From: Anaerolineaceae bacterium
Lineage (GTDB): Bacteria > Chloroflexota > Anaerolineae > Anaerolineales > Villigracilaceae
Assembly (NCBI GenBank): GCA_003598975.1
Contig: QZIJ01000056.1
Location: forward strand, 1 to 48,800
Direction of reading: 5' to 3'
DNA length: 48,800 nt
The position numbers and the translations under genes are program-made. Of this stretch, positions 803-43,884 are shown piece after piece; within the stretch, counting starts at the first letter, position 1, and each line of letters starts with the position of its first letter. The notes below the pieces were generated by a model that saw only the letters and a list, made by a program, of their open reading frames with translations, was not told where the DNA came from and made no database searches.

Positions 803-1529
803 CGTGCTCTTTGCTTCACTCGGACTCGTCATCGTCTGGCAGGTTACAGCGATAATCGTGAACCGTCCCATTTTGCCCGCGCCGTGGGTAGTGGTCGTGG
901 TTTTCTTCAAGGAGTTGGGGAAGGGTCTCCTTCTTCACTTCGGGTGCAGCCTGTGGCGCGTCACAGTGGGGACAACCCTGTCTGTGCTGGCCGCCGCGCC
1001 TGTGGGACTCGCCATCGGCGGGTCGAAGACGTGGAATCGAATCCTGTCCCCTGTAATTTATCTGCTGTATCCCATTCCGAAAGTGGTGCTGGTCCCGATT
1101 GTGTTTTTGTTTTTAGGAATTGGCGACACGGCCAAGATCGCCATCATCTTTCTGATTTTGTTTTTCCAGATCGTGGTGCTGGTCCGCGACCAGGCCGCGA
1201 ATATTCCCCCGCAATTGATCCAAAGCCTGCGCAGTCTCGGCGCAGGACGGCGCGCCCTTTTCCGTTTCGTCTACTTCCCCGCCAGCCTGCCCGCCATCCT
1301 GACCGCCCTGCGACAATCTATTGGGACAGCGGTGGCAGTGCTGTACGTGACCGAATTATTCGCCACCAAATACGGACTCGGCTATTACATCTACTACAAC
1401 GGCAGTACCCTGCTCAATTATCCCGCCATGTACGCGGGTGTGATCGCGATGAGTTTGCTTGGGCTTGGAATGTACTTTGCGGTGGATTGGATGGAACGAA
1501 AATTATGCAGGTGGAAGTTTGTGAGTTAG
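789..1529 (+). CDS. NitT/TauT-family ABC transporter permease
   Basis: Membrane component paired with the upstream ATPase. The frame is open from 744, but a GTG at 789 preceded by a GGCGGAG-type ribosome site gives a 246-residue protein of normal length, overlaps the ATPase stop by 14 bases and removes an implausible Cys-rich N-terminus. About six hydrophobic segments are visible. The cytoplasmic EAA-like loop (SLGAGRRALFRFVYFPASLP) is the expected ATPase contact. SsuC/TauC-like. The overlap implies translational coupling. Confidence 0.9.
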   Translation: MKRRDVLFASLGLVIVWQVTAIIVNRPILPAPWVVVVVFFKELGKGLLLHFGCSLWRVTVGTTLSVLAAAPVGLAIGGSKTWNRILSPVIYLLYPIPKVVLVPIVFLFLGIGDTAKIAIIFLILFFQIVVLVRDQAANIPPQLIQSLRSLGAGRRALFRFVYFPASLPAILTALRQSIGTAVAVLYVTELFATKYGLGYYIYYNGSTLLNYPAMYAGVIAMSLLGLGMYFAVDWMERKLCRWKFVS

Positions 1530-1605
1530 TTTGGTAGTTCAATAGTTCGGTAGTTGGCAGAAGAAACTACAAAAACTGCGTAACTACAAAACTACATAAC
1601 TGAGA
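1527..1605. repeat. Imperfect short repeat of GTTTGGTAGTT-like units
   Basis: Directly after the permease stop, the intergenic DNA consists of degenerate copies of AGTTTGGTAGTT followed by AACTACAAAACTAC-like units, so the two halves are roughly inverted. A related stretch in the opposite orientation lies in frame inside the molybdenum hydroxylase gene at about 16063-16110. Confidence 0.55.
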
Positions 1606-2492
1606 AACATCCCTGCCCAAAACAACAAACTAAACAACAATGCGATCTTCCCCGTCCCTGCGAGCGCGGCGTTGAGCGGACGTCCATTCTGCGTGGCAAC
1701 CACGCGCCAGGTTTTCCACGCCAGCGGAATCGAGAACCAGGCCAGCATTGACCATGCGGGGACTATTTTCGTCACAACCAGCGCGGGCAAAATCAAATAA
1801 GCAGTAACCATGCACATTGCATACTCAACGCGCGTCCCGCGTTCGCCAAGCCGCACAGCCAGCGTGCGCTTGCCTGCCTGTTTGTCACTTTCGATGTCGC
1901 GCAAATTATTGACGACCAAAATCGCGGTGATGATGAGTCCCACAGGCACAGACATCCACCACGCCGCGACGCTGACCGTACCGACCTGCACGAAATACGT
2001 CCCTGTCACGGCCGCGACGCCGAAAAAGATGAAAACGAAAATATCGCCGAGGCCGTAATAGCCCAGCGGAAACGGTCCGCCCGTGTAGGCAATCGCGGAG
2101 AGAATCGCGGCCAGCCCAATCGCGACCACCACCCAGCCGCGCAGGAAGGTGAGGTAGAGTCCGCACAGCGCCGCCAGCCCGAAGATGACCCACATCCCAA
2201 ACTTCACCTGCGCGGGCGTCAGCAGTCCCGCCTGAGTCACGCGCAGGGGTCCCTGCCGCTCGGACGTGTCCGCGCCGCGCTCAAAGTCGAACACATCGTT
2301 CGCCACATTACTTCCGATTTGCAAAAGAAGCGCAACCACCAGCGCGGCCAGCGCGGGCAAAGGTTGAAACGAACCATCGCGCCAAGCGAGGGCACAGCCC
2401 ATCACCACACCAGAGGCTGCGGCAGGCAGGGTCTTCGGTCGAATCGCCAGCCACCAGATTTGAAAGAGAGAAAAATTTCCATGAAGGGACAT
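1584..2492 (-). CDS. menA: 1,4-dihydroxy-2-naphthoate polyprenyltransferase
   Basis: Integral membrane UbiA-superfamily prenyltransferase that joins 1,4-dihydroxy-2-naphthoate to a polyprenyl chain, giving demethylmenaquinone. The 302 residues begin with the MenA-typical RPKTLPAAASGV (18-29). The first Asp-rich prenyl-diphosphate site is at 62-75 (N..NDVFDFERGAD). The second is NNLRDIESDKQAGKRTLA at about 196-213. Eight to nine hydrophobic helices fit the family. It starts 7 bases after the stop of the upstream minus-strand membrane protein gene, so the two are probably co-transcribed. menG/ubiE, the next pathway step, is divergent 2 kb away. Confidence 0.93.
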   Translation of the reverse strand: MSLHGNFSLFQIWWLAIRPKTLPAAASGVVMGCALAWRDGSFQPLPALAALVVALLLQIGSNVANDVFDFERGADTSERQGPLRVTQAGLLTPAQVKFGMWVIFGLAALCGLYLTFLRGWVVVAIGLAAILSAIAYTGGPFPLGYYGLGDIFVFIFFGVAAVTGTYFVQVGTVSVAAWWMSVPVGLIITAILVVNNLRDIESDKQAGKRTLAVRLGERGTRVEYAMCMVTAYLILPALVVTKIVPAWSMLAWFSIPLAWKTWRVVATQNGRPLNAALAGTGKIALLFSLLFWAGMFLSYVVL

Positions 2493-2499
2493 GATAATT

Positions 2500-4482
2500 T
2501 CACCGATCGCAGTTTAAAGATTGAATGACTTCACGGATTTGTGTTTCCAGTCCCATCCGATCCGCTTCCCGGATGTACCGCCAGACTGCACATACGCCGC
2601 GTTGAATTTTTGCTCCCGAAGCAAGCGCGTCAACAGAAAGCCGCCGGGCGGTTTGTAAATCACCAGTCAATGCATAGGCTTCGATAAATACCAACCATTC
2701 GTTTTCATCCTGTGGATGAAAACCCAGGGAAATAGCCTCATTTCCAAGCGAAACAACCTTCTGACAATCGCCCTGTTGCTGGGCCAGTTCCGCCTTCGCA
2801 TGATAATAACACCACTGGTGGGCAGGCTCTGGAAAGTACACAGGCCTAGCAGGCGAAGCAGGTTGAAGAATGATGCGGGAAAGATCAGACGATGGAATGG
2901 CATCCGGTAAACGGGCGGGCAGGCCGGCATAAGTCTGCATATCCACGCGTGAAGAATCCAACACGCGCAGACACCCATTGGCAGGCATGTAAATTACCAC
3001 AACGTTGGATGTGGAACTGCGAAAATGTACCGTACGATACAAATACGAGATTTCTGTACCTGGCTCTAGGTTTGGCAAGGTGGGGCCGCCCAGCCGCTTT
3101 TCTGTATAAAGAAGCATGAACGGAAGGTCTGAGCGCGTATAGTCGGGGGCATACATCCAATTGATCGGCGCAGTGAATGATAGATCGGTCTCATATTCAA
3201 CTGGCAATTCGTTTGTAAGCAGAACAGTGCCGGGTTCCAATCCCGGCATGCGCCATACCATTTGCCAGTAAATTTCCGCCTGTTTTTCCCAGTCGCGGCG
3301 AAAGATATTGGCATTGAAAAATTGTTGACCAATGCCAAACGCAACCAGGATTGCAATGACGAGAAGTTTCGTTCGCTGATTCTTGATCAAAGCCTCGATC
3401 AATCCTGCCGCAAACAAGCTTCCCCCGATCATCATGGAAATCATTAACCTGTCATACCCTGTCTGCAATTTTATGGGCAGGTCTGCAACAAGGGAGGGCA
3501 GTCTGCCTAATAAAATCCCGGCAATACCAAGGATCGTTAGAGAAACAAAAACTGGTCTCTCTACGTGTTCATCTGTTTGTTCGAAACGAAACAGATAACG
3601 TGCAAGAAACATGAACGAGATTGCGATTAACCCCAACGTAAAAAGGGAGACGGGTGAAGGCAGAGATGAAAATGATAAGACCAGAACCTGAACCCAGATA
3701 TAAACCCCGGCTTTCCAGAGCGCGTCCAGTACCTGGCCGAACAGGTATCCAGGTGGAAGTTGGGAAACAACCACGCCGTAAGAATCATAGGAACCAAACG
3801 CATAATAATAAAACAGCCATACGGCATTAAGAATCCAGACCAAAAAATAAGGCGCCCACGCGCGGAAAGCCTTTCCAAAGCGCAGAACCATGTTGCCCCG
3901 GAAATGGAAAAATAAAAACATGAAACGCAACCCCTCCAGAGCGAAGAAATACTCGGTGGGAAAAATCCCGCAAATTTGCAGAAGCACCGCGATGGCAATG
4001 AATGGAACAGGATTTTGGACGCGTAATGCCTTGAATGTGAAACCAAAGGAAAGCAGATAAAAAATGAAGGGAATCAGTTCCTGATTAATGTGTGTCAACG
4101 CCACCCAGTGCTGGCTGTAACCGGGGAAAACAAGCATGAACAGCGCAAGAGTCAAAACAAGGCGATGCTGATTGGGAAATATCTGCTTGAAACTCCACCA
4201 GGCCGTCAAACCAATGATAAACCGAATGACCAGCGCAAAAATCTGCCAATACACAGGAATTGGAGGGATGAGGCTGGTGGTGACAAAGAAGATCGGACCG
4301 AGAAAAGGTCGGAACGGCAGGAAGGCCGATACGAACTCGGCCGGGCCAAGAAATTCCGCAATCCAGGCAAAAGGCCAGTCATCCCAATAAAAACCTGTCC
4401 ACGGCAGAAGCAATCCGTAGGCTACAAGTGTGATGATTGCAAAAAGCAAAATGCGGCGAAAACGCGATACCAGCAAAAACAT
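2500..4482 (-). CDS. Large polytopic membrane protein with soluble C-terminal region
   Basis: Not recognised by name. About 660 residues. The N-terminal two thirds hold roughly ten hydrophobic segments with long loops, in the general style of GT-C glycosyltransferase-like membrane proteins. The last ~130 residues are hydrophilic and helical (for example HAKAELAQQQGDCQKVV and EAYALTGDLQTARRL), resembling TPR repeats. The frame is open to an ATG at 4497, but that start would overlap a TATAAT hexamer on the same strand. The ATG at 4482 (MFLLVSRFRR) lies 6 bases after the hexamer and fits a leaderless start. No catalytic motif is certain. Upstream of and probably co-transcribed with menA. Confidence 0.75.
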   Translation of the reverse strand: MFLLVSRFRRILLFAIITLVAYGLLLPWTGFYWDDWPFAWIAEFLGPAEFVSAFLPFRPFLGPIFFVTTSLIPPIPVYWQIFALVIRFIIGLTAWWSFKQIFPNQHRLVLTLALFMLVFPGYSQHWVALTHINQELIPFIFYLLSFGFTFKALRVQNPVPFIAIAVLLQICGIFPTEYFFALEGLRFMFLFFHFRGNMVLRFGKAFRAWAPYFLVWILNAVWLFYYYAFGSYDSYGVVVSQLPPGYLFGQVLDALWKAGVYIWVQVLVLSFSSLPSPVSLFTLGLIAISFMFLARYLFRFEQTDEHVERPVFVSLTILGIAGILLGRLPSLVADLPIKLQTGYDRLMISMMIGGSLFAAGLIEALIKNQRTKLLVIAILVAFGIGQQFFNANIFRRDWEKQAEIYWQMVWRMPGLEPGTVLLTNELPVEYETDLSFTAPINWMYAPDYTRSDLPFMLLYTEKRLGGPTLPNLEPGTEISYLYRTVHFRSSTSNVVVIYMPANGCLRVLDSSRVDMQTYAGLPARLPDAIPSSDLSRIILQPASPARPVYFPEPAHQWCYYHAKAELAQQQGDCQKVVSLGNEAISLGFHPQDENEWLVFIEAYALTGDLQTARRLSVDALASGAKIQRGVCAVWRYIREADRMGLETQIREVIQSLNCDR

Positions 4483-4488
4483 TCTCAG

Positions 4489-4494
4489 ATTATA
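4489..4494 (-). promoter_or_regulatory. -10 hexamer for the membrane protein-menA unit
   Basis: TATAAT on the minus strand, 6 bases before the ATG at 4482. No convincing -35 hexamer and no Shine-Dalgarno sequence are seen. The position predicts a transcript starting at or next to the start codon. Confidence 0.5.
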
Positions 4495-4570
4495 CATTCA
4501 TGGTGGGAACATGCGCTTATAATAGCTCTTTTGTAGGATAAGTCTGCAAACTTGTCCACCTGGAGACCTC

Positions 4571-5263
4571 ATGACCCAATTGACAGGACACGAGCGCGCC
4601 GCCTATGTGCAAAACATGTTCACGCGCATCGCCAAACGCTACGATCTGATGAACCGCCTGATAACGGGATTTCAAGACGTGCGCTGGCGACGGCGGGTGA
4701 TTCGACTGGCTGACCTGAAACCCGCATCGCGCCTTCTGGACCTCGGGGCGGGGACGGGCGATTTGGCGCGTGAGGCCCTTCGACAGCAACCCGCGGCACG
4801 CGTCACCGCCGCGGACTTCACCCTCGAAATGATGCGCGTCGGACAGCGCCGCGGCCCACTCGATTTTTCCGCGGCGGACGCGTTGCGCCTCCCGTTCGCG
4901 AACGTGTCCTTCGACGCGGCCGTCTCGGGGTTCCTGATGCGAAACGTGATAGACATCCACAAAGCGCTGGAGGAGCAGTTCCGCGTCCTCAAACGCGGCG
5001 GACGGATCGTCATCCTCGACACGACGCGCCCGAAGAAAAACATCCTTTCGCCGTTCATCTGGATTCACATGCATTTCATCATCCCCACACTCGGACGAAT
5101 CATCTCTGGCGAGCGCGACGCGTACAAGTATCTGCCCGACACCACCGAAAATTTCGTCACCGCCGAAAAAATGGCCGCATTGATGGCCTCGGTGGGCTTC
5201 CAAGAAATCGGCTGCCAGCGCCTGATGTTTGGCACGATTGCCATCCACTGGGCGGAAAAATAG
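4571..5263 (+). CDS. ubiE: Demethylmenaquinone methyltransferase (UbiE/MenG family)
   Basis: SAM-dependent C-methyltransferase that makes menaquinone from demethylmenaquinone, the last step of the pathway. The 230-residue protein has the family N-terminus with FTRIAKRYDLMN (17-28), the SAM-binding loop LDLGAGTGD at 56-64, the acidic/DFT motif ADFTLEMM, and the UbiE signatures SGFLMRNVID and RVLKRGGRIVILD. TTENFVTAEKMAALM near the C-terminus is also characteristic. The ribosome site GGAG lies 6-8 bases before the ATG. Because menA is nearby, the menaquinone (MenG) role is more likely than ubiquinone. Confidence 0.95.
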   Translation: MTQLTGHERAAYVQNMFTRIAKRYDLMNRLITGFQDVRWRRRVIRLADLKPASRLLDLGAGTGDLAREALRQQPAARVTAADFTLEMMRVGQRRGPLDFSAADALRLPFANVSFDAAVSGFLMRNVIDIHKALEEQFRVLKRGGRIVILDTTRPKKNILSPFIWIHMHFIIPTLGRIISGERDAYKYLPDTTENFVTAEKMAALMASVGFQEIGCQRLMFGTIAIHWAEK

Positions 5264-5302
5264 TTTCGTGAATGCGACGCACCCTCAAAGAAGGACTCAT
5301 CC

Positions 5303-5770
5303 ATGAAAACCAAACAACCGAATTCCCGTCAATGCTTCGTGTGCGGACTCGAAAACCCCATCGGTTTGCACATGCACTTCTACGAAACCGCGCCCGATGA
5401 AGTGACCGCCGAGTACACGGCGCCTGAAAGTTATCAGGGCTATCCAGGCATTTTGCACGGAGGCATTACCGCCGCCATCCTGGACGAAGCCACAGGCCGC
5501 GCCTTCATGGGCAGCAACCCGAAGACATCGAATTTCATGTACACCGCTGAATTGAAGGTGAAATACAAAAAGAAAGTGCCAGTGGGACAGCCGCTCAAAA
5601 TCGTGGGCAAACGCGGCAAACGCATGCGCTGGACAGCCGAAGCGACTGGAGCAATTTACGACGCGCACGGAACCCTGCTGGCCGAAGCCTCCGCCATCCT
5701 CGTGGATTTGCCCGAACAACTCCCCGCCGAAGATTTAGAACGGCTCGGCTGGAAGGTTTATCCAGATTAA
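5303..5770 (+). CDS. PaaI-like hotdog-fold thioesterase
   Basis: 155-residue protein of the 4HBT/PaaI hotdog superfamily, which usually hydrolyses acyl-CoA or aryl-CoA thioesters in the cytoplasm. The core motif is HGGITAAILDEATGRAF (52-68), with the catalytic acidic position at D61/E62. The N-terminus carries the pair C11 and C14 in CFVCGLENPIGL, common in this subgroup. It follows ubiE by 39 bases on the same strand. A link to menaquinone synthesis through DHNA-CoA hydrolysis is possible, but nothing in the sequence proves the substrate. Confidence 0.85.
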   Translation: MKTKQPNSRQCFVCGLENPIGLHMHFYETAPDEVTAEYTAPESYQGYPGILHGGITAAILDEATGRAFMGSNPKTSNFMYTAELKVKYKKKVPVGQPLKIVGKRGKRMRWTAEATGAIYDAHGTLLAEASAILVDLPEQLPAEDLERLGWKVYPD

Positions 5771-5773: not shown

Positions 5774-5833
5774 GTAGGGGTGACCCGTCAGGATGAGCAG
5801 GGCGCCTGACAAACAATGGCGGGTCACCCCTAC
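5774..5833. repeat. 60-bp palindromic element (GTAGGGGTGACCCG arms)
   Basis: A perfect 14-base inverted repeat (GTAGGGGTGACCCG at 5774-5787 and its complement at 5820-5833) encloses a second pair, GTCAGG and CCTGAC. It would fold into a long hairpin after the thioesterase gene. The arms resemble dispersed palindromes seen in other bacterial genomes. There is no T-tract, so it is not a standard terminator. Confidence 0.85.
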
Positions 5834-15414: not shown

Positions 15415-15501
15415 GTACACAGATTTCGCGGATTGTGCGGATTGACACAGGGATTGTAAGAAAATCCGTGAAAATCCCTGCGTTCCGTGAAATCCGTGTA
15501 C
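15415..15501. repeat. Palindromic element with GTACAC(A/G)GATT ends
   Basis: Left end GTACACAGATT (15415-15425) and right end AATCCGTGTAC (15491-15501) form an imperfect inverted repeat around GGATTG/AATCC-rich DNA. A second element with matching ends lies at 27892-27961. Confidence 0.8.
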
Positions 15502-15519: not shown

Positions 15520-18486
15520 ATGAACCTCACACTGCACATCAACGGCATTGACCACGAGATCGAAGCGCCTGTCCACACCACCCTCCTCTCCGCCCTGCGC
15601 GGACTGGGATTCCACGGTGTCAAATTTGGCGACGAACAGGGGCTGTCTGGCGCGGATACCATCCTGCTGGATGGCCGCCCCGTCAACGCGGGATCGTTGC
15701 TGGCCGCGCAGGCCGAAGGTCACAAGGTTGCGACCATCGAAGCACTAGGCGAACATCCTGAACAGGGCTGGAAAAAAACTGACGGTCTTCATCCACTTCA
15801 ACAGGCATTTGTCGAAAACGGCGCGATCCAGTGCGGATACTGCACACCCGCGCAGATTCTTGCCGCCAAGGCCTTGCTGGAAAAGAATCCGAATCCCAGC
15901 GAAGCGGAAGTTCGCGAAGCGATTTCTGGTGTGCTGTGTCGTTGTACGGGCTATCTCAAGCCTGTCCAAGCGGTGCTGAACGCGGCAGCCGTCATGCGTG
16001 GCGAAGAGCCTGTAAGCTGGGAATCGGTCAATTGGGACTTGGGGAATCGAGGAGATCTTAATCCCGACAACCAAACTACCAATTTACCAAGTGACCAATT
16101 CACCAACGTGATGACGCGCCCGAAGGTGGTCGTCACGCCCGATAAACAGACATGGCAGACGGTTGGCAAACCAGAAATTAAACTGGACGCGGTGAAACTT
16201 GTGCAAGGCAAACCTGCATTTACTGCGGACATCGAAAAGCGCGGATTGCTCCACGCCAAAGTCCTGCACTCGCCGCACGCGCACGCCCGCATCAAGCGGA
16301 TAGACGTTCGCAGCGCGCGTGACCTCGAGGGGGTCGCAGCGGTGCTGACGTGGCAGGATATCCCGCGCGTCGCTTACTCCACTGCGGGTCAGTCCGACCC
16401 GATTCCCGGGCCACTGGATACGTTCTCGCTGGACAATAAAGTCCGCTTCGTGGGCGACCGCGTCGCGTTCGTCGCGGCAGAGACGCCCGAAATTGCGGAA
16501 AAAGCCCTGTCGCTGATCGAAGTCGATTACGAAATCCTGCCCGCCATTTTAGACTCGCGCGAAGCGATGGCCAGTCCGATTCGGATTCACGATGAGCCTG
16601 AGTACGTCAATTTTGCAGATTCGCATCCCGAAAAAAATCTCGCCGCTGAAATCCGCATCGACATCGGCAACGTGGAAAAAGGATTCGCCGAAGCCGACCA
16701 GATCTTTGAAGCAGAATACACTGTGCCAAAAGTCCAGCAGGCGCACATCGAGCCGCATGTGGCAGTCACGTATTGGGACGAAGATGATCGCCTTGTGATT
16801 CGCACGTCCACGCAAGTGCCGTTCCACGTCAGGCGGCAACTCGCGCCCGTGCTGGGATTACCCGTCAAGCGCATCCGCGTCATCAAGCCGCGCATCGGCG
16901 GCGGGTTCGGCGGCAAGCAGGAAGTGTTGATGGAAGACGTGGCCGCGCATTTGACGATTGCCACCAAACGGCCTGTACTTTACGAATATACACGCGAGGA
17001 AGAATTTGTCGCTTCGCGCTCGCGCCATCCCATGCGAATCAAAATGAAGACGGGCGTGAAGCGCGATGGCACGATCACAGCCAACGAAATGTATGCGCTT
17101 TCGGACACGGGCGCCTACGGATGTCACGCGCTGACCGTGACGGGCAACACGGGGCATAAGTCCATGGCGCTGTACGTTGGCGATGGCGAGTATCGGAAGA
17201 GTCCCAACATCCGCTTCTACGCGGACATCGTCTACACCAACACGCCGCCGTCGGGCGCGTATCGCGGTTACGGCGTGCCGCAGGGATATTGGCCGCTGGA
17301 CCGTCACATGGAAAAAATCGCGCGCGCGCTGAATCTCGACCCGCTTGAATTCCGTCTCAAGAACGCGCTCCGCCCCGGCGAGTATCATCCGTTCAGCACC
17401 GCCTGGAACGAGGGGCGCGAGCCGCGTCCCGAAATCATCCACACGGTTGGACTCGAACAATGCGTCGCGCAAGGTCGCGCCGCAATTGGATGGGATGATA
17501 AGTTCGGTAATGAGGCATGGCATGGGGACAAAACGAAAAGCGTAAAACGTAAAGGGGTGGGCGTCGCGCTGGTCATGCAGGGAACCGCGATTCCGTATCT
17601 GGATATGGGCGGCGCTTCGATAAAAATGAATGACGATGGATCGTTTAACCTGCTCGTCGGCGCGACAGATTTGGGGACGGGTTCGGACACCGTCCTGGCG
17701 CAGATGGCCGCTGAAGTATTAGGCGTCCCCGTGGACGACATCATCTGCTACTCGTCCGATACGGATTTCACCCCGTTCGACAAGGGCGCATATGCTTCCT
17801 CCACGACCTACATCTCAGGAACAGCGGCGACGAACGCGGCGAAGATTGCGGCAGAGAGAATCAAGATTCGTGCGGCAAAAATGCTGAACGTGGATGATCC
17901 TAATTCCATCTTGTTGCGTGACCGCAAAGCACATGCCCCCGATGGTCGCACAGTGACTCTGTCCGAGATCGCCCTTGACACACTCCACAAAAGTGAACAG
18001 GAACAAATCATGGGCGTCGCGAGTTACGTCTCGCCGTCATCACCGCCTCCATTCGCGGCGCAGTTCGCCGAAGTGACCGTGGACACGGAAACAGGCGCGG
18101 TGACGGTGGACAAACTCGTCATGGCGGTGGACTCGGGCGTAATCGTAAATCCGTCCACAGCCTCGGGACAGATCGAAGGCGGGATGACGCAAGCCCTCGG
18201 CTACGCGGTCTGCGAGGAGATGCGCTACGATGAGAAGGGTCAGGCCCGCGAACGCGATTTTGACCGCTATCACATCTTCCGTGCGGACGAAATGCCCGAG
18301 TTGGAAACCATCTTCGTGGAGACCTTCGAGCCGAGCCACCCGTTCGGGGTCAAGGCTGTGGCGGAAATCCCGATGGACGGGGTCGCGCCCGCAGTCGGGA
18401 ACGCCGTTCTCGACGCGGTCGGCGTCAACGTGGACGAGAATCCAGTCACGCCTGAGAAGGTGTGGAGGGCGCTCAAGGTAAAATAG
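15520..18486 (+). CDS. Fused Fe-S/molybdopterin hydroxylase (XdhD/Se-dependent xanthine dehydrogenase-like)
   Basis: 988 residues from ATG 15520, with AAGGAG upstream. The N-terminal ferredoxin-like domain keeps the fold (GVKFGDEQGLSGADTILLDG), but the usual cluster cysteines are D38, S43, D46 and G58. The second cluster is intact (C105, C108, C140, C142). A linker at about 160-200 is encoded partly by a repeat. The Mo domain shows GGGFGGKQE, GAYRGYGVPQG, GATDLGTGSDT and DKGAYASS. The catalytic Glu lies in FGVKAVAEIPMDG near the C-terminus. The arrangement matches E. coli XdhD (YgfN) and selenium-dependent xanthine dehydrogenases. The likely substrate is a purine or other N-heterocycle. Confidence 0.9.
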   Translation: MNLTLHINGIDHEIEAPVHTTLLSALRGLGFHGVKFGDEQGLSGADTILLDGRPVNAGSLLAAQAEGHKVATIEALGEHPEQGWKKTDGLHPLQQAFVENGAIQCGYCTPAQILAAKALLEKNPNPSEAEVREAISGVLCRCTGYLKPVQAVLNAAAVMRGEEPVSWESVNWDLGNRGDLNPDNQTTNLPSDQFTNVMTRPKVVVTPDKQTWQTVGKPEIKLDAVKLVQGKPAFTADIEKRGLLHAKVLHSPHAHARIKRIDVRSARDLEGVAAVLTWQDIPRVAYSTAGQSDPIPGPLDTFSLDNKVRFVGDRVAFVAAETPEIAEKALSLIEVDYEILPAILDSREAMASPIRIHDEPEYVNFADSHPEKNLAAEIRIDIGNVEKGFAEADQIFEAEYTVPKVQQAHIEPHVAVTYWDEDDRLVIRTSTQVPFHVRRQLAPVLGLPVKRIRVIKPRIGGGFGGKQEVLMEDVAAHLTIATKRPVLYEYTREEEFVASRSRHPMRIKMKTGVKRDGTITANEMYALSDTGAYGCHALTVTGNTGHKSMALYVGDGEYRKSPNIRFYADIVYTNTPPSGAYRGYGVPQGYWPLDRHMEKIARALNLDPLEFRLKNALRPGEYHPFSTAWNEGREPRPEIIHTVGLEQCVAQGRAAIGWDDKFGNEAWHGDKTKSVKRKGVGVALVMQGTAIPYLDMGGASIKMNDDGSFNLLVGATDLGTGSDTVLAQMAAEVLGVPVDDIICYSSDTDFTPFDKGAYASSTTYISGTAATNAAKIAAERIKIRAAKMLNVDDPNSILLRDRKAHAPDGRTVTLSEIALDTLHKSEQEQIMGVASYVSPSSPPPFAAQFAEVTVDTETGAVTVDKLVMAVDSGVIVNPSTASGQIEGGMTQALGYAVCEEMRYDEKGQARERDFDRYHIFRADEMPELETIFVETFEPSHPFGVKAVAEIPMDGVAPAVGNAVLDAVGVNVDENPVTPEKVWRALKVK
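16063..16110. repeat. In-frame repeat inside the Mo hydroxylase gene
   Basis: Tandem-like CCAAACTACCAATTTACCAA sequence encodes a low-complexity Asn/Thr/Gln linker (residues about 182-197, DNQTTNLPSDQFTNV) between the Fe-S and Mo domains. It resembles, in inverse orientation, the intergenic repeat at 1527-1605. Confidence 0.5.
17528..17553. repeat. In-frame GTAAAACGTAAA repeat inside the Mo hydroxylase gene
   Basis: Lys-rich, A-rich patch coding DKTKSVKRKG at about residues 669-678 in an otherwise GC-rich gene. It shares GTAAAACGTAAA with a patch in nnrDE at 25551-25580. Confidence 0.5.
18479..18484 (+). promoter_or_regulatory. -10-like hexamer of the pyrophosphatase gene
   Basis: TAAAAT overlaps the end of the hydroxylase gene and lies 6 bases before the ATG at 18491. 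There is no Shine-Dalgarno sequence. The spacing fits a leaderless transcript. Confidence 0.4.
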
Positions 18487-21814: not shown

Positions 21815-21965
21815 CGTCATTGCGAGCGAGCGCTGGTCGAGTAGGCGGAAGTACTCCGAGGCCGTACACCTGCATGCAAGTGCAGGTGTCGAGACCAAGC
21901 GAGCGAAGCAATCTCCCTACCCGCCGCGAGGAGATTGCTTCGGGAAAAACACCCTCGCAATGACG
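21815..21965. repeat. 151-bp composite palindromic element (CGTCATTGCGAG ends)
   Basis: Ends CGTCATTGCGAG (21815-21826) and CTCGCAATGACG (21954-21965) are a 12-base inverted repeat. Inside lies a second palindrome of TGGTCGAGTAGGCGG...GTCGAGACCA type with a CACCTGCATGCAAGTGCAGGTG core, then GAAGCAATC / GATTGCTTC. The outer ends match the element at 43752-43884. The inner palindrome matches parts of 24101-24232 and the coding patch at 39765-39801. Confidence 0.85.
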
Positions 21966-21978
21966 GGCGAATGTGCGA

Positions 21979-24100: not shown

Positions 24101-24232
24101 GAGCGGAGGGTCGAGTAGGCGGTGTTCGTCCGCCGTACCGAGACCCACAGTCGAAGGACGGGCCACATGAGCACGCACTGTTCCGTGGACTTGCCCTTCG
24201 ACTTCGTTCGCAACTTACGCTCTCTCCGCTCA
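24101..24232. repeat. Nested palindromic element between convergent genes
   Basis: Outer ends GAGCGGAG / CTCCGCTC. Inside are GGTCGAGTAGGCGG...CCGCCGTACCGAGACCC and AGTCGAAGG / CCTTCGACT. The latter motif, with CGCTCAGG, recurs in frame within the radical SAM gene at 42541-42578. Confidence 0.8.
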
Positions 24233-24265
24233 GGGCAGTGAGCCTTTAGATTCTATTCCCCACAA

Positions 24266-25819
24266 CTAACCGGATAATTCCACCATTACATCATTGATGC
24301 AATCGAGGACATCGCCCGCCAACACGGACGCGGCGCTTCCAGCTTCGCTGAGGGCGGCCAGCCCGGCCTGTGCGTGGATCCACGCCCCTGCGACGGCGGC
24401 CTCGAACGCGTCCATGCCCTGGGCGCGCAGGCCAACGATGATGCCTGCCAGCACGTCCCCTGTCCCTGCGCGGGCGAGCGCGGCGGAAGCAAATGGCAGG
24501 ACGGCGATTCTCCCGTCAGGCACGGCGATGACGGTGAACGCGCCTTTCAGCACGACGATGTGTCCCCATTCTTTCGCGTATTTCTCAGCGACGAACTCGC
24601 GGTTGTTTTGAATGTCTTCTTTCGATAATCCCGTCAGCACGGACATTTCGCCTGGGTGCGGAGTCAGCACAGAGAGCGCGGGGAGTTTCGCGTGCCAGTC
24701 GGGAATCTGTGCGAGGAGTTTCAGCGCGTCCGCGTCCGCGACGAAGGTAGGTAATTTTGCTTCGAGCAATTTGGCGAGGAAATCTTTGGTGGTCTCTTCG
24801 AGGCCGAATCCGCAGCCGACAAGGAGGGCGGTGGCGCGTCCGAGATTCTGCGCGACGGCAATCGCGCCCGCGCGGGCGATGAATCCGTTTTCGTGCGGGA
24901 GGGGAATCCACGTGGCTTCGGGGAGGTGGCCTGCCAGCGCGGCATGAAGAGGCGCGGGGACAGCCAGTGTAACAAGTCCCGCTCCGACGCGATAGGCGGC
25001 TTTGGCGGAGAGGTAGGCCGCGCCTGTGTAGGCGATTGATCCCGCCGCGATGAGGGCTGTGCCAAACGTCCCTTTGTGCGCGTCGTCGGGACGCGGCGGC
25101 AGATGGTCAGTGACCCACTCCACGTCAGGGGCGAAGCGAGGAATGTCCGCGAGCGCGGGGAGGTCGGGAGGCAGGCCGATGTCCACCACGTCGAGTTCGC
25201 CCACGAGGTCGAAGGCGGGGAAGCGGAGCAATCCCTGTTTGACACATGCCATCGTGACGGTGAGGTCGGCGGGGAGGGTTTCGTCGGCGACCTCGCCTGT
25301 GTCGCAGTCCACGCCCGAGGGACAGTCCACGGCGACAATGAAGGGCGGCTCGTCCAATGAGGCGAGGATGGATTGCACGCTGAAGAGCAGGTTGGCAATT
25401 TCGGGTTTGAGCGGGAGTTGGATGCCCGTACCGAGCAAGCCATCGAGGAGCAGGTCGGATGTTTCGAGGAAGGCCGCGAGGGAATCGGATTCGTCGTCTT
25501 CCTCGGCAAGGATGATCTCGCCGCCCGAACCGAGAAGGCGTTGCACCAACTCATCTTTTTTCGTTTTACGTTTTACACAATATGCCCTTGCGCGCCAACC
25601 CGCGCGGGCGAGACGTGCGAGGGCAACGAGGGTGTCGCCGCCGTTATTGCCTGGCCCGACGAGGCCGAGGACTTCCTCCCAGCCATTGTCTTCCCCCAGC
25701 GCATGGACGATATCCGCCAGCCCGCGGCCCGCGTTTTCCATCATTTGCTCGTATGTGAGTCCGCTGGCATCGGCTTGGGATTCGATGACTTTCATTTCAG
25801 AGACAGTGACGAGTTTCAT
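24266..25819 (-). CDS. nnrDE: Bifunctional NAD(P)H-hydrate epimerase / ADP-dependent dehydratase
   Basis: 517-residue fused YjeF protein that repairs hydrated NADH and NADPH. The N-terminal epimerase domain (about 1-220) shows VIESQADASGLTYEQMMENAG, VGPGNNGGDTLVALARL and VAVDCPSGVDCDTGE. The C-terminal ribokinase-like dehydratase domain has HKGTFGTALIAAGS, LTPHPGEMSVL and the nucleotide-site ARAGTGDVLAGIIVG. Cytoplasmic. A Lys-rich patch (CVKRKTKKDE, about residues 79-88), encoded by an A-rich repeat-like segment, interrupts the epimerase domain in a surface position. The upstream minus-strand DNA has TATAAT at 25840-25845. Confidence 0.95.
   Translation of the reverse strand: MKLVTVSEMKVIESQADASGLTYEQMMENAGRGLADIVHALGEDNGWEEVLGLVGPGNNGGDTLVALARLARAGWRARAYCVKRKTKKDELVQRLLGSGGEIILAEEDDESDSLAAFLETSDLLLDGLLGTGIQLPLKPEIANLLFSVQSILASLDEPPFIVAVDCPSGVDCDTGEVADETLPADLTVTMACVKQGLLRFPAFDLVGELDVVDIGLPPDLPALADIPRFAPDVEWVTDHLPPRPDDAHKGTFGTALIAAGSIAYTGAAYLSAKAAYRVGAGLVTLAVPAPLHAALAGHLPEATWIPLPHENGFIARAGAIAVAQNLGRATALLVGCGFGLEETTKDFLAKLLEAKLPTFVADADALKLLAQIPDWHAKLPALSVLTPHPGEMSVLTGLSKEDIQNNREFVAEKYAKEWGHIVVLKGAFTVIAVPDGRIAVLPFASAALARAGTGDVLAGIIVGLRAQGMDAFEAAVAGAWIHAQAGLAALSEAGSAASVLAGDVLDCINDVMVELSG
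25551..25580. repeat. In-frame GTAAAACGTAAA-like repeat inside nnrDE
   Basis: On the coding (minus) strand this reads GTGTAAAACGTAAAACGAAA, unlike the GC-rich gene around it. It shares the GTAAAACGTAAA core with 17528-17553. Confidence 0.5.
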
Positions 25820-27891: not shown

Positions 27892-27961
27892 GTACACGGA
27901 TTTGACGGATTTTCTTAAATTCTTTCCGTGTGAATCTGTGTAATCCGCGTAATCCGTGTAC
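27892..27961. repeat. Palindromic element with GTACACGGATT ends
   Basis: Perfect 11-base inverted ends GTACACGGATT (27892-27902) and AATCCGTGTAC (27951-27961). Same family as 15415-15501. It separates convergent genes. Confidence 0.85.
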
Positions 27962-34983: not shown

Positions 34984-35033
34984 TGCGTCGCACCTTATCG
35001 GGTGAAGTTTCCCCCAGGTTTAGGTGCGACTCA
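34984..35033. repeat. Palindromic element with TGCGTCGCAC-like ends
   Basis: TGCGTCGCACCTT...TTAGGTGCGACTCA between plsX and the next gene. Related to 39153-39204, with the same GTGCGTCGCAC / TTAGGTGCGAC ends, and to a half copy near 5271 (ATGCGACGCACC). Confidence 0.75.
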
Positions 35034-35060
35034 TTCGCGCACATTCACAAACAGGACACC

Positions 35061-39134: not shown

Positions 39135-39152
39135 CCAGTTTTTCGTTCGCGA

Positions 39153-39204
39153 GTGCGTCGCACTTTGACGGCGAGGAAGATTCTTCCCGTTAGGTGCGAC
39201 GCAC
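39153..39204. repeat. Palindromic element with GTGCGTCGCAC ends
   Basis: GTGCGTCGCAC (39153-39163) and GTGCGACGCAC (39194-39204) are inverted copies around GAGGAAGATTCTTCCCG, itself palindromic (GGAAGA/TCTTCC). Related to 34984-35033. Confidence 0.85.
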
Positions 39205-39257: not shown

Positions 39258-39327
39258 TTACAATTACTTTTTACCTACAATCTGCCACTGGCCAATAGAC
39301 TAGCAGACCAAAGGCCAGCAGATCAAT

Positions 39328-40275
39328 ATGCCCAAATCCCGCATCGCGCTTGCTATTTTCGTCGCCATCCTGGCCGTCTCCACTGCGAGCATCTTCATTC
39401 GATTCGCGCAGGAGGACGCGCCGTCGCTGGTCATCGCGGCGGCACGCCTGACCCTCGCCAGCCTCGCGCTCGCGCCCTTCGCTCTCTTCAAACACAGGGA
39501 CGAAATCCGCTCGCTCACGCGCCGCGAATGGATTCTCGCCATTTGTTCTGGCGTTTTCCTCTCCATCCATTTCGCATCCTGGATCACCTCACTCGAATAC
39601 ACCACCGTTGTCTCGTCTGTTGTCCTCGTCAGCACAGGGCCACTGTGGGTCGCGCTCCTCTCTCCCATTTTCCTCAAAGAGACTCCCTCGCGCTGGGTAT
39701 GGATCGGCATGACTCTCGCCTTGATCGGCGGATTGATCGTTGGACTGGGCGACTCTTGCACGCTGGGTCTCGATACGCTCCCTGCGGTCACTACTCGACC
39801 AGCATTCTCCCTTGCCTGCCCGCCTCTTTCTGACCTTTTAGCGGGTTCAGCGTTCTGGGGCAATTTCCTAGCCCTCCTCGGCGCGTGGACAGTGGCCGGC
39901 TACCTGATGATCGGACGCAACCTCCGTGCCAAAATCAGCCTCGTCCCCTACATCTTCATCGTCTACGGCGTCGCGGCGATTGCGCTCCTGGTTTGTGTGG
40001 CCGTAGCAAAACAGTCTCTGCTTGGCTACCCGCAATTGACCTATCTCTGGCTTATCTGCCTCGCCCTCATCCCCCAACTAATCGGACATTCCACTTACAA
40101 CTGGGCTTTGCGCTACATGCCGGCTTCGCTGGTCTCCATCACCACGCTTGGAGAACCCATTGGTTCGGCCATTTTGGCTTTTTTTCTCCTCAGCGAAACC
40201 CCCAGCCTATTGACCCTGCTCGGCGGCGGATTTATTTTGGCGGGAATTTATTTATCAACCAAAACAAGCAGATAA
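39328..40275 (+). CDS. EamA-family (DMT superfamily) transporter
   Basis: 315 residues, ten membrane helices in two EamA halves (first half FIRFAQEDAPSLVIAAARL, second half VYGVAAIALLVCVAVAKQ and SLVSITTLGEPIGSAILAF). Exports or imports small metabolites; substrate not predictable. Between the two halves, residues about 144-172 (CTLGLDTLPAVTTRPAFSLACPPLSD region) are longer than usual and are encoded by DNA that matches a dispersed palindrome (39765-39801). The start has no strong ribosome site. Confidence 0.88.
   Translation: MPKSRIALAIFVAILAVSTASIFIRFAQEDAPSLVIAAARLTLASLALAPFALFKHRDEIRSLTRREWILAICSGVFLSIHFASWITSLEYTTVVSSVVLVSTGPLWVALLSPIFLKETPSRWVWIGMTLALIGGLIVGLGDSCTLGLDTLPAVTTRPAFSLACPPLSDLLAGSAFWGNFLALLGAWTVAGYLMIGRNLRAKISLVPYIFIVYGVAAIALLVCVAVAKQSLLGYPQLTYLWLICLALIPQLIGHSTYNWALRYMPASLVSITTLGEPIGSAILAFFLLSETPSLLTLLGGGFILAGIYLSTKTSR
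39765..39801. repeat. In-frame palindromic repeat within the EamA gene
   Basis: GGGTCTCGATACGCTC...CTACTCGACCA, the complement of the TGGTCGAGTAG...GAGACC motif of 21815-21965 and 24101-24232. Encodes residues about 146-158 in the loop between the two EamA halves. Confidence 0.7.
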
Positions 40276-40328
40276 TTCGCCCTCTCGTCTTGAAATTCGT
40301 TGTACAATATCCGCAGGAGGATGCGCCG

Positions 40329-40991
40329 ATGAAACGCCTGCTTTTTCCCCTTCTCATCTTCTGCCTCGCATTGACCGCCTGCGGAGGGAAAAAGACTGCC
40401 GCGCCCGCTGATTCCCTGATCACCAAATCGCCAGCCATTCAGATCGCGCAACCTTCCTCCACGCCCTCCCCCAGACCCACAAACACACCTGTTCCTTCAG
40501 CGACACCTATATCACCTTATACAGGCCTCTGGATATTCTTTGAAAAAATAAATGACCAAAATCTAAGCCTACTACTAGACGCCAAAGACGGAAAACAACT
40601 AACACAAGGAAGTAGCGTAACATTAGTCAGCCAACCAAACGTGACTGGCTCTTTATATGTATGCAGCCGTACTCCAGCCTCATTAACTGGCCTGGCAATA
40701 GAAGGAAGCAGAGACTACCCTTCATTCCCATCTGCCCAGATAGCAGTCCCTGGAGTTGGCGACTGCCTGAAATGGACAAACAATCTATGGTCGCTAGGAG
40801 CTCCGCAAGGAAGTTTCTTACACCTGACACTTGAACAAAGAGCAGCACAAAGCCTGACAACCTTCAACCCATTTGCCACAATTATCTTAAAATACGTACC
40901 ACCACCAGCAGTTGCTCCCCCAAGCGGCGGCGGTGGCGGCGGCGGCGGCGGACCACCAAACCCTAATGGGACACCTACACAAATAGAGTAA
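40329..40991 (+). CDS. Lipoprotein with Thr/Pro linker and atypical AT-rich C-terminal domain
   Basis: 220 residues from ATG 40329, with AGGAGG upstream. Signal MKRLLFPLLIFCLAL, lipobox LTAC and a Ser/Thr/Pro linker (SSTPSPRPTNTPVPSATP) are typical of the other lipoproteins here. From about 40500 the codon use changes to AT-rich (many CTA, ATA, ACA). That part encodes an unrecognised domain (GLWIFFEKINDQNLSLLLD, VTGSLYVCSR), then PPAVAPPSGGGGGGGGGPP. The frame is unbroken across the change. Either a native anchor joined to foreign DNA, or an assembly junction. Confidence 0.75.
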   Translation: MKRLLFPLLIFCLALTACGGKKTAAPADSLITKSPAIQIAQPSSTPSPRPTNTPVPSATPISPYTGLWIFFEKINDQNLSLLLDAKDGKQLTQGSSVTLVSQPNVTGSLYVCSRTPASLTGLAIEGSRDYPSFPSAQIAVPGVGDCLKWTNNLWSLGAPQGSFLHLTLEQRAAQSLTTFNPFATIILKYVPPPAVAPPSGGGGGGGGGPPNPNGTPTQIE

Positions 40992-41024
40992 TTACAACTT
41001 TACACAAACCATAATCACAAATTT

Positions 41025-41034
41025 TTTATACATA
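41025..41034 (+). promoter_or_regulatory. AT-rich TATA-like box before the MopE-like gene
   Basis: TTTTATACAT is centred about 25 bases before the ATG at 41054. That is the distance of an archaeal TATA box from a leaderless start. It could also be read as a poor bacterial -10 (TATACA). Speculative. Confidence 0.25.
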
Positions 41035-41053
41035 ATCCTTTAATAGTTAATTG

Positions 41054-42442
41054 ATGAAAAAAGGGATTATATTTATTTTCATTTATCTTTGCATAATCTT
41101 TTCTGTGCAAGGCAAATTAATCTATCCTTGGAGCTTTACTACAGAAAGAGGTGATACTGTTCAGGTCACAGCAATCTGGGTTGCTTGCACAGACTCTGAA
41201 TGCAAACATATAAAAAGTTCTCCCACATCAAATATCTGGACTCCAAACCCAAAAATTTTACAGACAACTGGCTCAATAAATGAAGTCCTTCCAAATTGTC
41301 CTGAAACAACTTATGGATATAACCTTTATTTTGCAGCAGAAGGATATAAGATTAATGTTGTACCTGTTTCGACTTACACTTGTTATTATCCGACCTACAC
41401 ATATCCACAATCTATAATTAATTTTTTTATGAAAGACAATTGTAAAGCAGATTTCACACTTCAAGTTCAAAGCTGTGCTGAAGCAGGAATGCCAATTTCC
41501 ATATTAACTGATACTGAGTTAAATGCGGAAACAGCTAGCGCATTCACACCTACACCAGGAATTTATTTCCCGCCAGAACTCAACGCATGGCGTGACATCT
41601 CAACCAAAGTCACAGCCACAGTAAAAAAGCAAGGCACAACAACCAACGTATTCACAGACGAAGATACCAAAAACATCTACGCAGGCACAACTGAAGACTT
41701 CTCTTTCCTCTGGCAGACTTCTAAGAACACACTGCCAGGCAACTATGTAATCACTATGAAATCTTTTGTCACAGACTTAAAATGTGACCAGAGTAATGAT
41801 GTTGTTACAACTGTCACAAATACTGTCAATATCGCAAAGTCGCTTGACGGCTGTGTCGCTCAAGTCCAAAACTTCATGTTAGAGCCTGTCTCTCCCACTC
41901 CAAACACTCAGGTATTATTCAAGGGAGAGCACAAGCATACTTATCAGGACTGGGATTGGGATGAGACATTAACAGCATGCACTGCTGGAAACGCGCAGCT
42001 TATATCAGGTGCATATCTTCCAGTGACTTACAGCCTAGTAATAAAAAAACAGCCTGCAAACACAGTAGTAGAGACACTCACTGGAACTCTTACGCCAAAT
42101 TCAGGAGGCTATGACACATTTAAGGCATTCTCTATTCCCTGGACACCGACAGCAGCCCAATGTGGAGAGTTTACAGCAACCCTTGTTACACAAACAACCC
42201 CTCTCGCAAGCTATCAATGCACTGCTGCATCAAAGACAGCTACAATCTCCAAGAATTTCAACATCGGAACAGACAATGACCATGACAATTATTATGATCT
42301 GTGCGGAGACTGTGATGACACAGCAACTGGACAGTTCACATATCCAAGCAACACAAATCAATTCTGCAACTGCGATGACACAGACGGAAAAGTGAAAGGG
42401 ACTGAGGTCCTGCGGACAGCCAAAATATCATCACTCCATTGA
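41054..42442 (+). CDS. Secreted surface protein with MopE-like Asp-rich motifs, archaeal in appearance
   Basis: 462 residues from ATG 41054. Signal peptide KKGIIFIFIYLCIIFSVQG, then a Cys- and Thr-rich extracellular chain with many beta-type segments, ending in DNDHDNYYDLCGDCDD and FCNCDDTDGKVKGTEV, the Asp/Cys pattern of MopE-type metal-binding modules. AT-rich codons and composition are unlike the neighbours and recall proteins of DPANN-type archaea. The last residues (LRTAKISSLH) break the expected Cys-Gly continuation. A one-base shift at 42411-42413 would give TEVCG, so the end may be frameshifted or cut at a junction. Confidence 0.72.
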   Translation: MKKGIIFIFIYLCIIFSVQGKLIYPWSFTTERGDTVQVTAIWVACTDSECKHIKSSPTSNIWTPNPKILQTTGSINEVLPNCPETTYGYNLYFAAEGYKINVVPVSTYTCYYPTYTYPQSIINFFMKDNCKADFTLQVQSCAEAGMPISILTDTELNAETASAFTPTPGIYFPPELNAWRDISTKVTATVKKQGTTTNVFTDEDTKNIYAGTTEDFSFLWQTSKNTLPGNYVITMKSFVTDLKCDQSNDVVTTVTNTVNIAKSLDGCVAQVQNFMLEPVSPTPNTQVLFKGEHKHTYQDWDWDETLTACTAGNAQLISGAYLPVTYSLVIKKQPANTVVETLTGTLTPNSGGYDTFKAFSIPWTPTAAQCGEFTATLVTQTTPLASYQCTAASKTATISKNFNIGTDNDHDNYYDLCGDCDDTATGQFTYPSNTNQFCNCDDTDGKVKGTEVLRTAKISSLH

Positions 42443-42467
42443 CAATTTAGCCCATATGTTCTAATAT
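42439..42467 (+). promoter_or_regulatory. Promoter for a leaderless radical SAM gene
   Basis: TTGACA (42439-42444), a 17-base spacer and TAATAT (42462-42467), then 6 bases to ATG 42474. The -35 hexamer overlaps the stop codon of the preceding gene. No Shine-Dalgarno sequence. Confidence 0.7.
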
Positions 42468-42473
42468 TGAGTC

Positions 42474-43664
42474 ATGGACGCAATTGGACGATTGAAACTG
42501 CTCTCCTCCCAAATGTCCTTCGAGGCAGATGTGGAAAACCGTCCTTCGACTACGCCGCTTCGCGGCTCCGCTCAGGACGATGTGGTTCATCCCGCCTGTT
42601 TCACGCCAAAAGAGCAAGATCAGGCCTTCGTCCACCCCGCGCAACTCCCCAACGGAAAACAAATCCTCCTGCTGAAGACCCTGCTCTCCTCCGCCTGCGA
42701 ACGGGACTGTTTCTACTGTCCCTTCCGCGCGGGGAGGGATTTCCGCCGCGCCACTTTCAAGCCCGAAGAATTCGCCAACCTGTTCGTGAAATTGAATCAA
42801 TCCAAAGCCGCGGAAGGACTTTTTATCAGTTCGGGACTGGCAGGCGGAGGCAGTCGCACGCAGGATAAACTGCTGGATACCGCCGACATCCTGCGAAACA
42901 AACTCGGCTTCCGTGGTTACATCCATTTGAAGATCATGCCAGGCGCGGAAAAGGAACAGGTCTATCGCGCCATGCAACTGGCAGACCGCGTCTCGATCAA
43001 CCTCGAAGCGCCAAACACGGATCGGCTATCCCGCCTCGCGCCGCACAAAATCTTCTTCGAGGAACTGCTACAGCCTCTTCGCTGGGTGGAAGAAATCCGA
43101 AAAACCGTCCCTGCAACCAAAGGCTGGAACGGACGCTGGCCCTCGTCCGTGACTCAATTCGTGGCGGGCGGCGCGGACGAGTCGGATCTGGAACTGCTGA
43201 CTACCACCGAGTGGCTGCATAAAAACGTCCGTTTGAGCCGCGCGTATTTTTCCGCGTTCTCCCCCATTCGCGACACTCCGCTCGAAAACAAAACCGCGAC
43301 AGATCCCCTACGCGAGCATCGTCTCTACCAAGCTTCGTTTCTTTTGCGAGATTATGGATTCGACCTCGAGGAACTTCCTTTCGTGGATGGCGGGAATCTT
43401 CCGCTCGCGTCCGATCCTAAACTGGCGTGGGCGCGGCAAAACCTGTCCGAGCGGCCGGTGGACATTAATCGGGCAGAGAAACGCGAGTTACTGCGCGTCC
43501 CGGGCATCGGTCCGAAGGGAGCCGAGGCAATTCTTCGCGCGCGGCGTGAGGGATGTCTGCGCGAATTGTCGCATCTGCGAAAACTCGGCATCGCCGTCCA
43601 GCGCGCCGCGCCTTTTGTACTGGTCAACGGGAAACGCAGTCCACAACAAATCCAGATGTTTTAA
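42474..43664 (+). CDS. Radical SAM protein with C-terminal helix-hairpin-helix (putative DNA modification/repair type)
   Basis: 396 residues. The radical SAM cluster cysteines are C75, C79 and C82 (SACERDCFYC), in a TIM-barrel domain with LFISSGLAGGG and VSINLEAPNTDRLSRLAP. The C-terminus carries a helix-hairpin-helix DNA-binding motif (VDINRAEKRELLRVPGIGPKGA). This combination fits the radical SAM family often encoded next to a uracil-DNA-glycosylase-like gene; none is seen here. Residues 23-36 (RPSTTPLRGSAQDD) are encoded by a palindromic repeat. Base composition returns to GC-rich at its start. Confidence 0.9.
   Translation: MDAIGRLKLLSSQMSFEADVENRPSTTPLRGSAQDDVVHPACFTPKEQDQAFVHPAQLPNGKQILLLKTLLSSACERDCFYCPFRAGRDFRRATFKPEEFANLFVKLNQSKAAEGLFISSGLAGGGSRTQDKLLDTADILRNKLGFRGYIHLKIMPGAEKEQVYRAMQLADRVSINLEAPNTDRLSRLAPHKIFFEELLQPLRWVEEIRKTVPATKGWNGRWPSSVTQFVAGGADESDLELLTTTEWLHKNVRLSRAYFSAFSPIRDTPLENKTATDPLREHRLYQASFLLRDYGFDLEELPFVDGGNLPLASDPKLAWARQNLSERPVDINRAEKRELLRVPGIGPKGAEAILRARREGCLRELSHLRKLGIAVQRAAPFVLVNGKRSPQQIQMF
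42541..42578. repeat. In-frame palindromic repeat within the radical SAM gene
   Basis: GTCCTTCGACTACGCCGC...GCGGCTCCGCTCAGGAC: outer GTCCT/AGGAC and inner GCCGC/GCGGC pairs. The motif CCTTCGACT...CGCTCAGG also occurs at 24195-24234 between genes. Confidence 0.75.
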
Positions 43665-43751
43665 GATTGTGGGGAAATTGTAAGAGATGTAAGAAAAGCG
43701 GGGTACGATTAATCTAATGCTTAATCTCGGATTGTATATTCGGCCAAACTT

Positions 43752-43884
43752 TTCTCTACCGTACAAATACGAGTAAATACGTCATTGCGAGGAGGGCGCT
43801 CTTCCCGACGAAGCAATCCCCACGTTGCGAGAGGAGATTGCTTCGGGAAGAACACCCTCGCAATGACGGATGTACGGTAGAGAA
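43752..43884. repeat. 133-bp nested palindromic element, MITE-like
   Basis: Outer arms TTCTCTACCGTAC / GTACGGTAGAGAA (13 bases), next arms CGTCATTGCGAG / CTCGCAATGACG (12 bases), inner arms CTTCCCGA..AAGCAATC / GATTGCTTCGGGAAG. The middle and inner arms match the element at 21815-21965; the outer arms do not. Non-coding, 24 bases before the DUF2231 gene. Confidence 0.9.

Follow-up and report, generated by a model that had tools for sequence, protein, structure and literature searches.

Palindromic repeats inside genes, their linkage to RAYT transposases (REP-associated tyrosine transposases, REP standing for repetitive extragenic palindrome) and the in-frame inserts of Rickettsia proteins are already known from earlier accounts (PMC3733652, PMC2229807, PMC6006769), and REPs within genes have been described for several phyla (PMC3733652). 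That account names one gene, recB, in which two species of Xanthomonas have differing REPs at nearly the same position, and it reports no transposase partner for the CGTC repeats. For the Chloroflexota, another source lists palindrome counts for three genomes, including Anaerolinea (PMC12306157). Here we examined a 48,800-nucleotide stretch (the window) of an Anaerolineaceae bacterium (assembly GCA_003598975.1, contig QZIJ01000056.1, positions 1 to 48,800), which carries several families of short palindromic or tandem elements between its genes and, in frame, within genes such as those of a radical SAM protein and an EamA protein, and we compared it with the rest of its genome and with relatives. 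The reading that we favor, with a probability of roughly 0.7, is a lineage-wide load of many short, hairpin-forming, non-autonomous mobile repeat families that arrive and are lost frequently, and whose in-frame copies persist in tolerant loops. What is known is in-frame REPs in other phyla; a search of the open-licence literature, which is no proof of absence, turned up no account of such REPs for Anaerolineales, nor of lineage-wide exchange of multiple families at one loop.

The likeness between REP/REPIN and RAYT systems (REPtrons, TIRtrons) and our elements lies in short palindromes, inverted pairs, the GTAG start, the linkage of families to RAYTs and in-frame copies, and repair genes are among the hosts both there and here (PMC3733652). 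The systems differ in that recB of two Xanthomonas species is the case given there, whereas here ten families occupy one loop over 89 orthologues; in addition, we found no RAYT partner for the families designated A, B and C here. Family C starts with CGTCATTGCGAG, forms inverted pairs and has no known transposase partner, and in these general features it resembles the CGTC-tagged REPs of the same account (PMC3733652). In-frame palindromes in conserved proteins are also shared with the Rickettsia palindromic elements and the Wolbachia protein-coding repeats (PMC2229807, PMC3733652). Our case differs from Rickettsia in the lineage, the many families and the differing families at one orthologous site, and the likeness is one of general description. 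An earlier note, made from the letters of this window, had drawn the Rickettsia parallel; its in-frame and multi-family aspects hold, the comparison as such is incomplete, and REPs in genes are, as said, known from several phyla. Cyanobacteria have dispersed heptamer tandem repeats of the STRR type. Dispersed arrays of 7-base units, like some of those found here, are also described in the work on the TAACTGA repeats of Beggiatoaceae (PMC4679880). What sets our arrays apart from both is that inverted arrays often accompany them and that they form part of a gene's reading frame.

Copy numbers were obtained as exact-pattern matches in the 3.94-Mb genome (149 contigs, the window being C149), with the reversed pattern as a control. 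Family A (CCTTCGAC..GCTCAGG) has 26 copies and family B (GGTCGAGTA..GAGACC) occupies 39 distinct places (41 rows); for family F (GCGTCGCAC..GGTGCGAC) there are 19 places (34 rows) and for family E (CGGATT..CGGATT..AATCCG) 10 places (11 rows). The control gave 0 in each case. The matches within the window lie at 24195 and 42543 (A), 24109 and 39766 (B), 34985 and 39155 (F), and 15429 and 27897 (E); a further family B copy, nested at 21835, was left out of the count because its gap exceeds the pattern limit. Among same-genus genomes, family B matches range from 1 (G002) to 75 (G003); the family F pattern gave 25 rows in G006 and 0 in both G001 and G003. Several family A and B copies are arranged as inverted pairs.

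Two of these copies lie in frame within genes of the window. A family A element (42543..42578, plus strand) sits near the start of the radical SAM gene (42474-43664), and a family B element (39766..39800, minus strand) lies in the EamA gene (39328-40275); in both cases the encoded residues are absent from relatives. The radical SAM gene was matched in 27 of the 41 genomes compared. In 14 aligned rows, the window has family A, G006 has family B with an A-like piece inside, and the other 12 have no clear element. The 22 aligned EamA rows comprise the window with family B, G006 with family A, G021 with a short A-like piece, and 19 without a clear element. Thus, two species of the same genus carry opposite families at both sites, and neither family is present at either site in G001 and G007, also of that genus. 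One-mismatch matches to loose patterns in the radical SAM gene of G020 (L034) and in the EamA gene of four relatives (L132, L134, L140 and L144) were judged to be due to chance.

To this extent the earlier note proved right: it had proposed multi-copy palindromic families and in-frame elements at 42541 and 39765. Of its further in-frame claims, two concern the molybdenum hydroxylase gene. This gene (15520..18486, plus strand), which fuses iron-sulfur and molybdopterin domains according to Pfam and its orthologues, contains in-frame tandem octamers (ACCAA..., repeat pattern D3; 16063..16108, plus strand) at a site that we call Mo1, in a linker that itself varies among orthologues. At a second site of the gene, Mo2, the GTAAAAC-like stretch (17518..17551, plus strand; claimed at 17528) is unsupported as an insert, since the loop of 18 residues (FGN to KG) is within the range of relatives: one residue longer than in G014 and G020, two longer than in G006, and two shorter than in G001. 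A similar GTAAAAC-like stretch in nnrDE (gene 24266-25819; stretch 25551..25580, minus strand) was rejected as an insert, because VKRK and the next D are present in relatives in a gapless alignment but are encoded by other codons. The last claim, of an element in an xdhC tail, found no counterpart; none of the 17 + 5 window ORFs (open reading frames) scanned, which are part of the window's total, is an XdhC gene, and the tandem and inverted 7-8-base repeats of the octamer type at 1527..1603 fall where an ABC permease gene (744-1529, Pfam) ends.

Elsewhere in the genome, 64 of the 65 distinct family A and B places were checked for open frames (the EamA copy was handled separately). A Pfam scan then covered 29 of the frames that span an element, for the most part the longest ones. 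Counting the two window genes, 11 A/B elements in 10 genes are apparently within coding sequence. The hosts are the radical SAM and EamA genes, GatA, DNA polymerase IV, MoeA-PBP, UvrD, PriA, aminotransferase IV (which hosts an inverted family B pair), a proline racemase-like gene and a ParA/ferredoxin-type gene. At the element, GatA, polymerase IV, the proline racemase-like gene and the aminotransferase IV gene show a gap relative to solved homologues, while the placement within MoeA, UvrD, PriA and ParA comes from domain positions alone; for UvrD, a search for a solved homologue gave no match. In the alignments, the insertion sites are linkers or gaps relative to homologues, a narrower statement than the surface loops suggested by the earlier note. 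The copies in radical SAM and EamA, absent from relatives, and those in GatA, polymerase IV and others, placed by solved homologues, are in-frame palindromic inserts in conserved genes, as in Rickettsia. GatA and MoeA share the near-identical peptide RPERSGAxSKG. An E1 dehydrogenase with two family B elements (L114) is ambiguous, and in the GH1, FTCD, FtsZ and Hsp70 frames the element is probably outside the gene because it precedes the frame's first Met. Some long spanning frames (e.g., L011, L016, L020 and L100) had no Pfam match.

The molybdenum hydroxylase offers a view of one gene across many species. We aligned 89 distinct orthologues, whose records are mostly titled Anaerolineales, Anaerolineae, Anaerolineaceae, Villigracilaceae or Chloroflexi, with a few titles from other groups. 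Apart from the ends, insertions cluster within the gene at Mo1, at Mo2 and at a third region, Mo3. These loops were searched for exact inverted repeats (arms of at least 9) or tandem similarity at lags of 7-9 bases, and 20 random same-length segments of the same gene per orthologue served as control. Such repeats were present at Mo2 in 47/89 orthologues compared with 2.2% of control segments, at Mo3 in 18/89 compared with 1.3%, and at Mo1 in 19/89 compared with 4.5%. Classified by motif, the Mo2 loop carries one of ten families in 58 orthologues, is compact in 30 and is of another kind in 1. Two palindrome types, GTAGGGGCG and GTAGGRCAA, account for 11 and 8 loops, family A for 2, and the tandem types, seven in number, for 13, 9, 5, 3, 3, 2 and 2. 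Unlike the window copy, the Mo2 loops of other species contain clear inserts, and the site is a gap relative to the solved alpha chain of 4-hydroxybenzoyl-CoA reductase. One tandem unit, the heptamer GTCGAAA found at Mo2 in G023, G003 and G008, is matched 111, 49 and 44 times in the respective genomes, compared with 1, 15 and 0 times for the control.

The palindromes at Mo2 are precisely placed. In 17 of 19 rows, the GTAG-type element starts exactly 3 nt past the codon of a conserved Trp; GTA or GTG is the start in 17 of 19, and the fourth base is G in most, not all. On a FastTree phylogeny of the hydroxylase from which the loop columns had been excluded, the family labels require at least 36 changes compared with 39.1 for shuffled labels (standard deviation (SD) 1.9, minimum 34), whereas the occupied or compact state requires 17 compared with 25.4 (SD 1.8, minimum 20). 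Occupancy of Mo2 thus tracks descent, while family identity shows hardly any tree signal.

Several families form strong predicted hairpins. When the window elements were folded as single-stranded DNA, the z-scores relative to shuffled sequences were -7.9 for the family C inverted pair (43776-43870), -6.0 for family G, -5.1 for E and -4.7 for F. They were moderate for a nested C/B element (-2.9; 21816-21917) and two family B copies (-1.9 and -2.4), and weak for the family A copy of the radical SAM gene (-1.4). Family B copies agree in their outer arms and differ in their inner stems, which nevertheless pair: 115 of 145 tested inner-stem pairs are kept over 33 copies compared with 73.6 when the 3' arms were redealt (SD 5.3, maximum 92 in 2000 shuffles). 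The hairpin has been kept. Nesting was also seen, of B in C at 21835, of an A-like piece in B in the radical SAM gene of G006, and of A in GTCGAAA arrays at Mo2 of L194, L226, L233 and L269, where the frame is still open.

RAYT-type proteins (matches to NF047646 with E <= 1e-6) occur in 36/41 genomes, in 20 of them above the curated cut-off. In a test selected after a single-flank inverted-repeat test had failed, both flanks shared one 12-mer or longer at 22/44 RAYT loci compared with 2/60 other genes, and one 16-mer or longer at 17/44 compared with 0/60. A RAYT-like gene on contig C51 of this genome, itself below the cut-off, is flanked by two 88-bp family F copies, and a RAYT of G023 has family F sequences on both sides. 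In a quick tree of 43 RAYTs, with flank motifs picked by eye, RAYTs having a common flank motif group together: family F (2), GTGACAGTCACC (3), AGACTTCCGAAGTCT (4), GGACAA (3, with a GCGCAA relative), GCGGACTTC (3) and CGACTAAAGTCG (4). Exceptions bearing another group's motif are L312, L320 (second motif), L329, L304 (second motif) and L340. Elements of the GGACAA and GCGCAA types stand at the RAYT flanks of L315, L316, L318 and L328, and the same types are found among the Mo2 elements; the sole link of the GTAGGGGCG type to a RAYT is a copy inside a RAYT-like gene of this genome. By these sequence associations, family F and the GTAG-type palindromes are linked to RAYT transposases.

For the other families the picture differs. 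Families A and B were absent from the RAYT flanks inspected, and one family A pair adjoins a response-regulator fusion, not a RAYT. No RAYT partner was found for family C or the tandem families in a survey that pattern-scanned the C20, C21 and C51 regions of this genome and took only the best inverted repeat at other flanks. The fusion, a Y1_Tnp protein on contig C21 (L123, 5486-7141, minus strand), was considered as a family A RAYT and rejected: its 551 residues combine a response-regulator-like N-terminus, read from the sequence, with a C-terminal IS200-like Y1_Tnp domain, and the inverted family A pair is just downstream.

Further observations concern RAYT genes and their neighbors. In three genomes a RAYT gene directly precedes the molybdenum hydroxylase gene (G021, L315; G019, L316; G012, L328), in whose Mo2 loop elements of the types at these RAYT flanks are found. 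On contig C126 of this genome, a RAYT-like gene (L326, 1810-2376, minus strand) has an in-frame family G palindrome inside its ORF, with the peptide VGATHWVAPT. A gene for a TIR domain and FGE-sulfatase-type protein (L124, 3460-4974, minus strand) adjoins the RAYT-like gene on C51.

These data require the fewest assumptions if several hairpin families arrive often and are often lost. The window would then be a sample of the lineage-wide repeat load; selection would leave in-frame copies in linkers and loops that tolerate extra residues, and the turnover would repeatedly refill the tolerant loops, few as they are in conserved genes, which would account for different families at one site in related species. 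Family F and the GTAG-type palindromes would be REPs, probably moved by RAYTs acting on single-stranded hairpins. The families, their in-frame positions, their presence or absence among relatives, the differing families at one site, the tie of families to RAYTs and the pairing in family B stems are seen in the sequences; we infer that RAYTs carry out the transposition, that inserts are tolerated rather than functional, and that elements arrive afresh instead of replacing older ones where they stand. The mobility suggested by the earlier note becomes concrete for family F and the GTAG type through their RAYT linkage.

Several results weigh against this reading. No mover was found for families A, B and C or the tandem families, and among the sequences compared we saw no junction with a target duplication and no within-species empty site. 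All four RAYT matches of this genome fall below the NF047646 cut-off (best 53.5 bits vs 80). A palindrome in one flank alone is unspecific, being present at 33/44 RAYT loci and 36/60 other genes, and G006 has 25 family F rows, yet F flanks neither of its two RAYT matches. The Mo loops were picked, and the family motifs written, after the sequences had been read. A folding-energy test at Mo2 was weak (14/89 at z <= -2; 0, 5 and 4 of 89 for control stretches), and GTCGAAA has 12 matches in this genome compared with 6 for the control, in heptamer counts that take in overlapping matches. Finally, the fixed distance of the GTAG-type start from the Trp codon is tighter than random arrival requires.

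A more specific model, which we put forward only tentatively, is that certain loops of conserved Anaerolineales enzymes may act as exchange slots: unrelated hairpin families would swap at one base position and frame by single-strand processing of the RAYT type, and the slot would outlast each family that occupies it. The single-base precision of the GTAG-type copies fits replacement in place, in which inserts of long standing, of the GTAG type at Mo2 and others at the radical SAM and EamA sites, were overwritten by other families via recombination or hairpin strand exchange. The tree signal of occupancy, all but missing for family identity, and the nested copies described above are likewise consistent with replacement. 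However, the 30 compact Mo2 loops, many of which lie between occupied ones on the tree, the lack of common flanking homology by which unrelated families could guide an exchange, and the radical SAM and EamA sites that are empty in same-genus G001 and G007 make this explanation unlikely. Less probable by a clear margin is selection for loop function, in which the protein has a use for long or disordered loops and so retains them, the repeats being mere raw material. The tree signal of occupancy would agree with such selection, but ten families with unrelated peptides serve, compact loops persist in a third of the orthologues (30/89), and proteins as unrelated as GatA and MoeA carry similar peptides. 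Chance resemblance of low-complexity coding sequence to repeats, although true of nnrDE and perhaps of the window's own Mo2 copy, is barely credible overall and is contradicted for radical SAM, EamA and Mo2 by the reversed-pattern controls of 0 for families A, B, F and E, the residues missing from relatives, and the excess of repeats at Mo2.

The Mo2 loop is a natural repeated experiment in turning non-coding mobile DNA into protein sequence, with one loop, many species, ten unrelated families and a frame that is open in each. Because different families occupy the same spot in related species, protein loops would record the arrival and departure of small mobile DNA, and REP gain and loss could be measured against a gene tree, part of the families being tied to their transposases. 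Protein inserts like those of Rickettsia are widespread in a quite different lineage, and the loop sequence of such proteins may be repeat-derived, which is a warning to those who interpret it. The structure that AlphaFold predicts for the hydroxylase has a mean pLDDT of 48, too poor to place the loops at the surface, and was left unused.

The remaining elements of the window are intergenic. Family E, made of 9-base units and inverted copies and identified by its pattern count in the genome, precedes the hydroxylase gene at 15415..15500 and recurs at 27892..27961 (z -5.1), both on the plus strand. Family B (24109..24145, z -1.9) and family A (24195..24236) lie close together, also on the plus strand. 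Two family F copies matching the pattern are on the plus strand, at 34984..35042 between a fatty-acid-synthesis-type gene and the next gene, and at 39145..39203 (z -4.7); this is the family linked to the RAYT-like gene of this genome. Family C elements, the first with the nested family B copy (21835-21896), occupy 21815..21966, and a family C inverted pair lies at 43781..43867; the family (21815, 43781) recurs inside the window as a 53-nt pair with 87% identity. Family G (GTAGGGGTGACCC..GGGTCACCCCTAC) is present at 5774..5833, the only match in this genome to a pattern whose gap limits were too narrow and missed known copies; a further copy lies within a RAYT-like gene of this genome, and relatives have related copies at Mo2. 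Families A, B and C differ in their outer arms but have similar hairpin tips, TGTTCTT among them (e.g., window 24109-24145 and 43781-43867). A TGTTCTT-like tip was present in 2 of 38 family B strings and, on the other strand, in 4 of 26 family A strings, as well as in one family C copy of the window.

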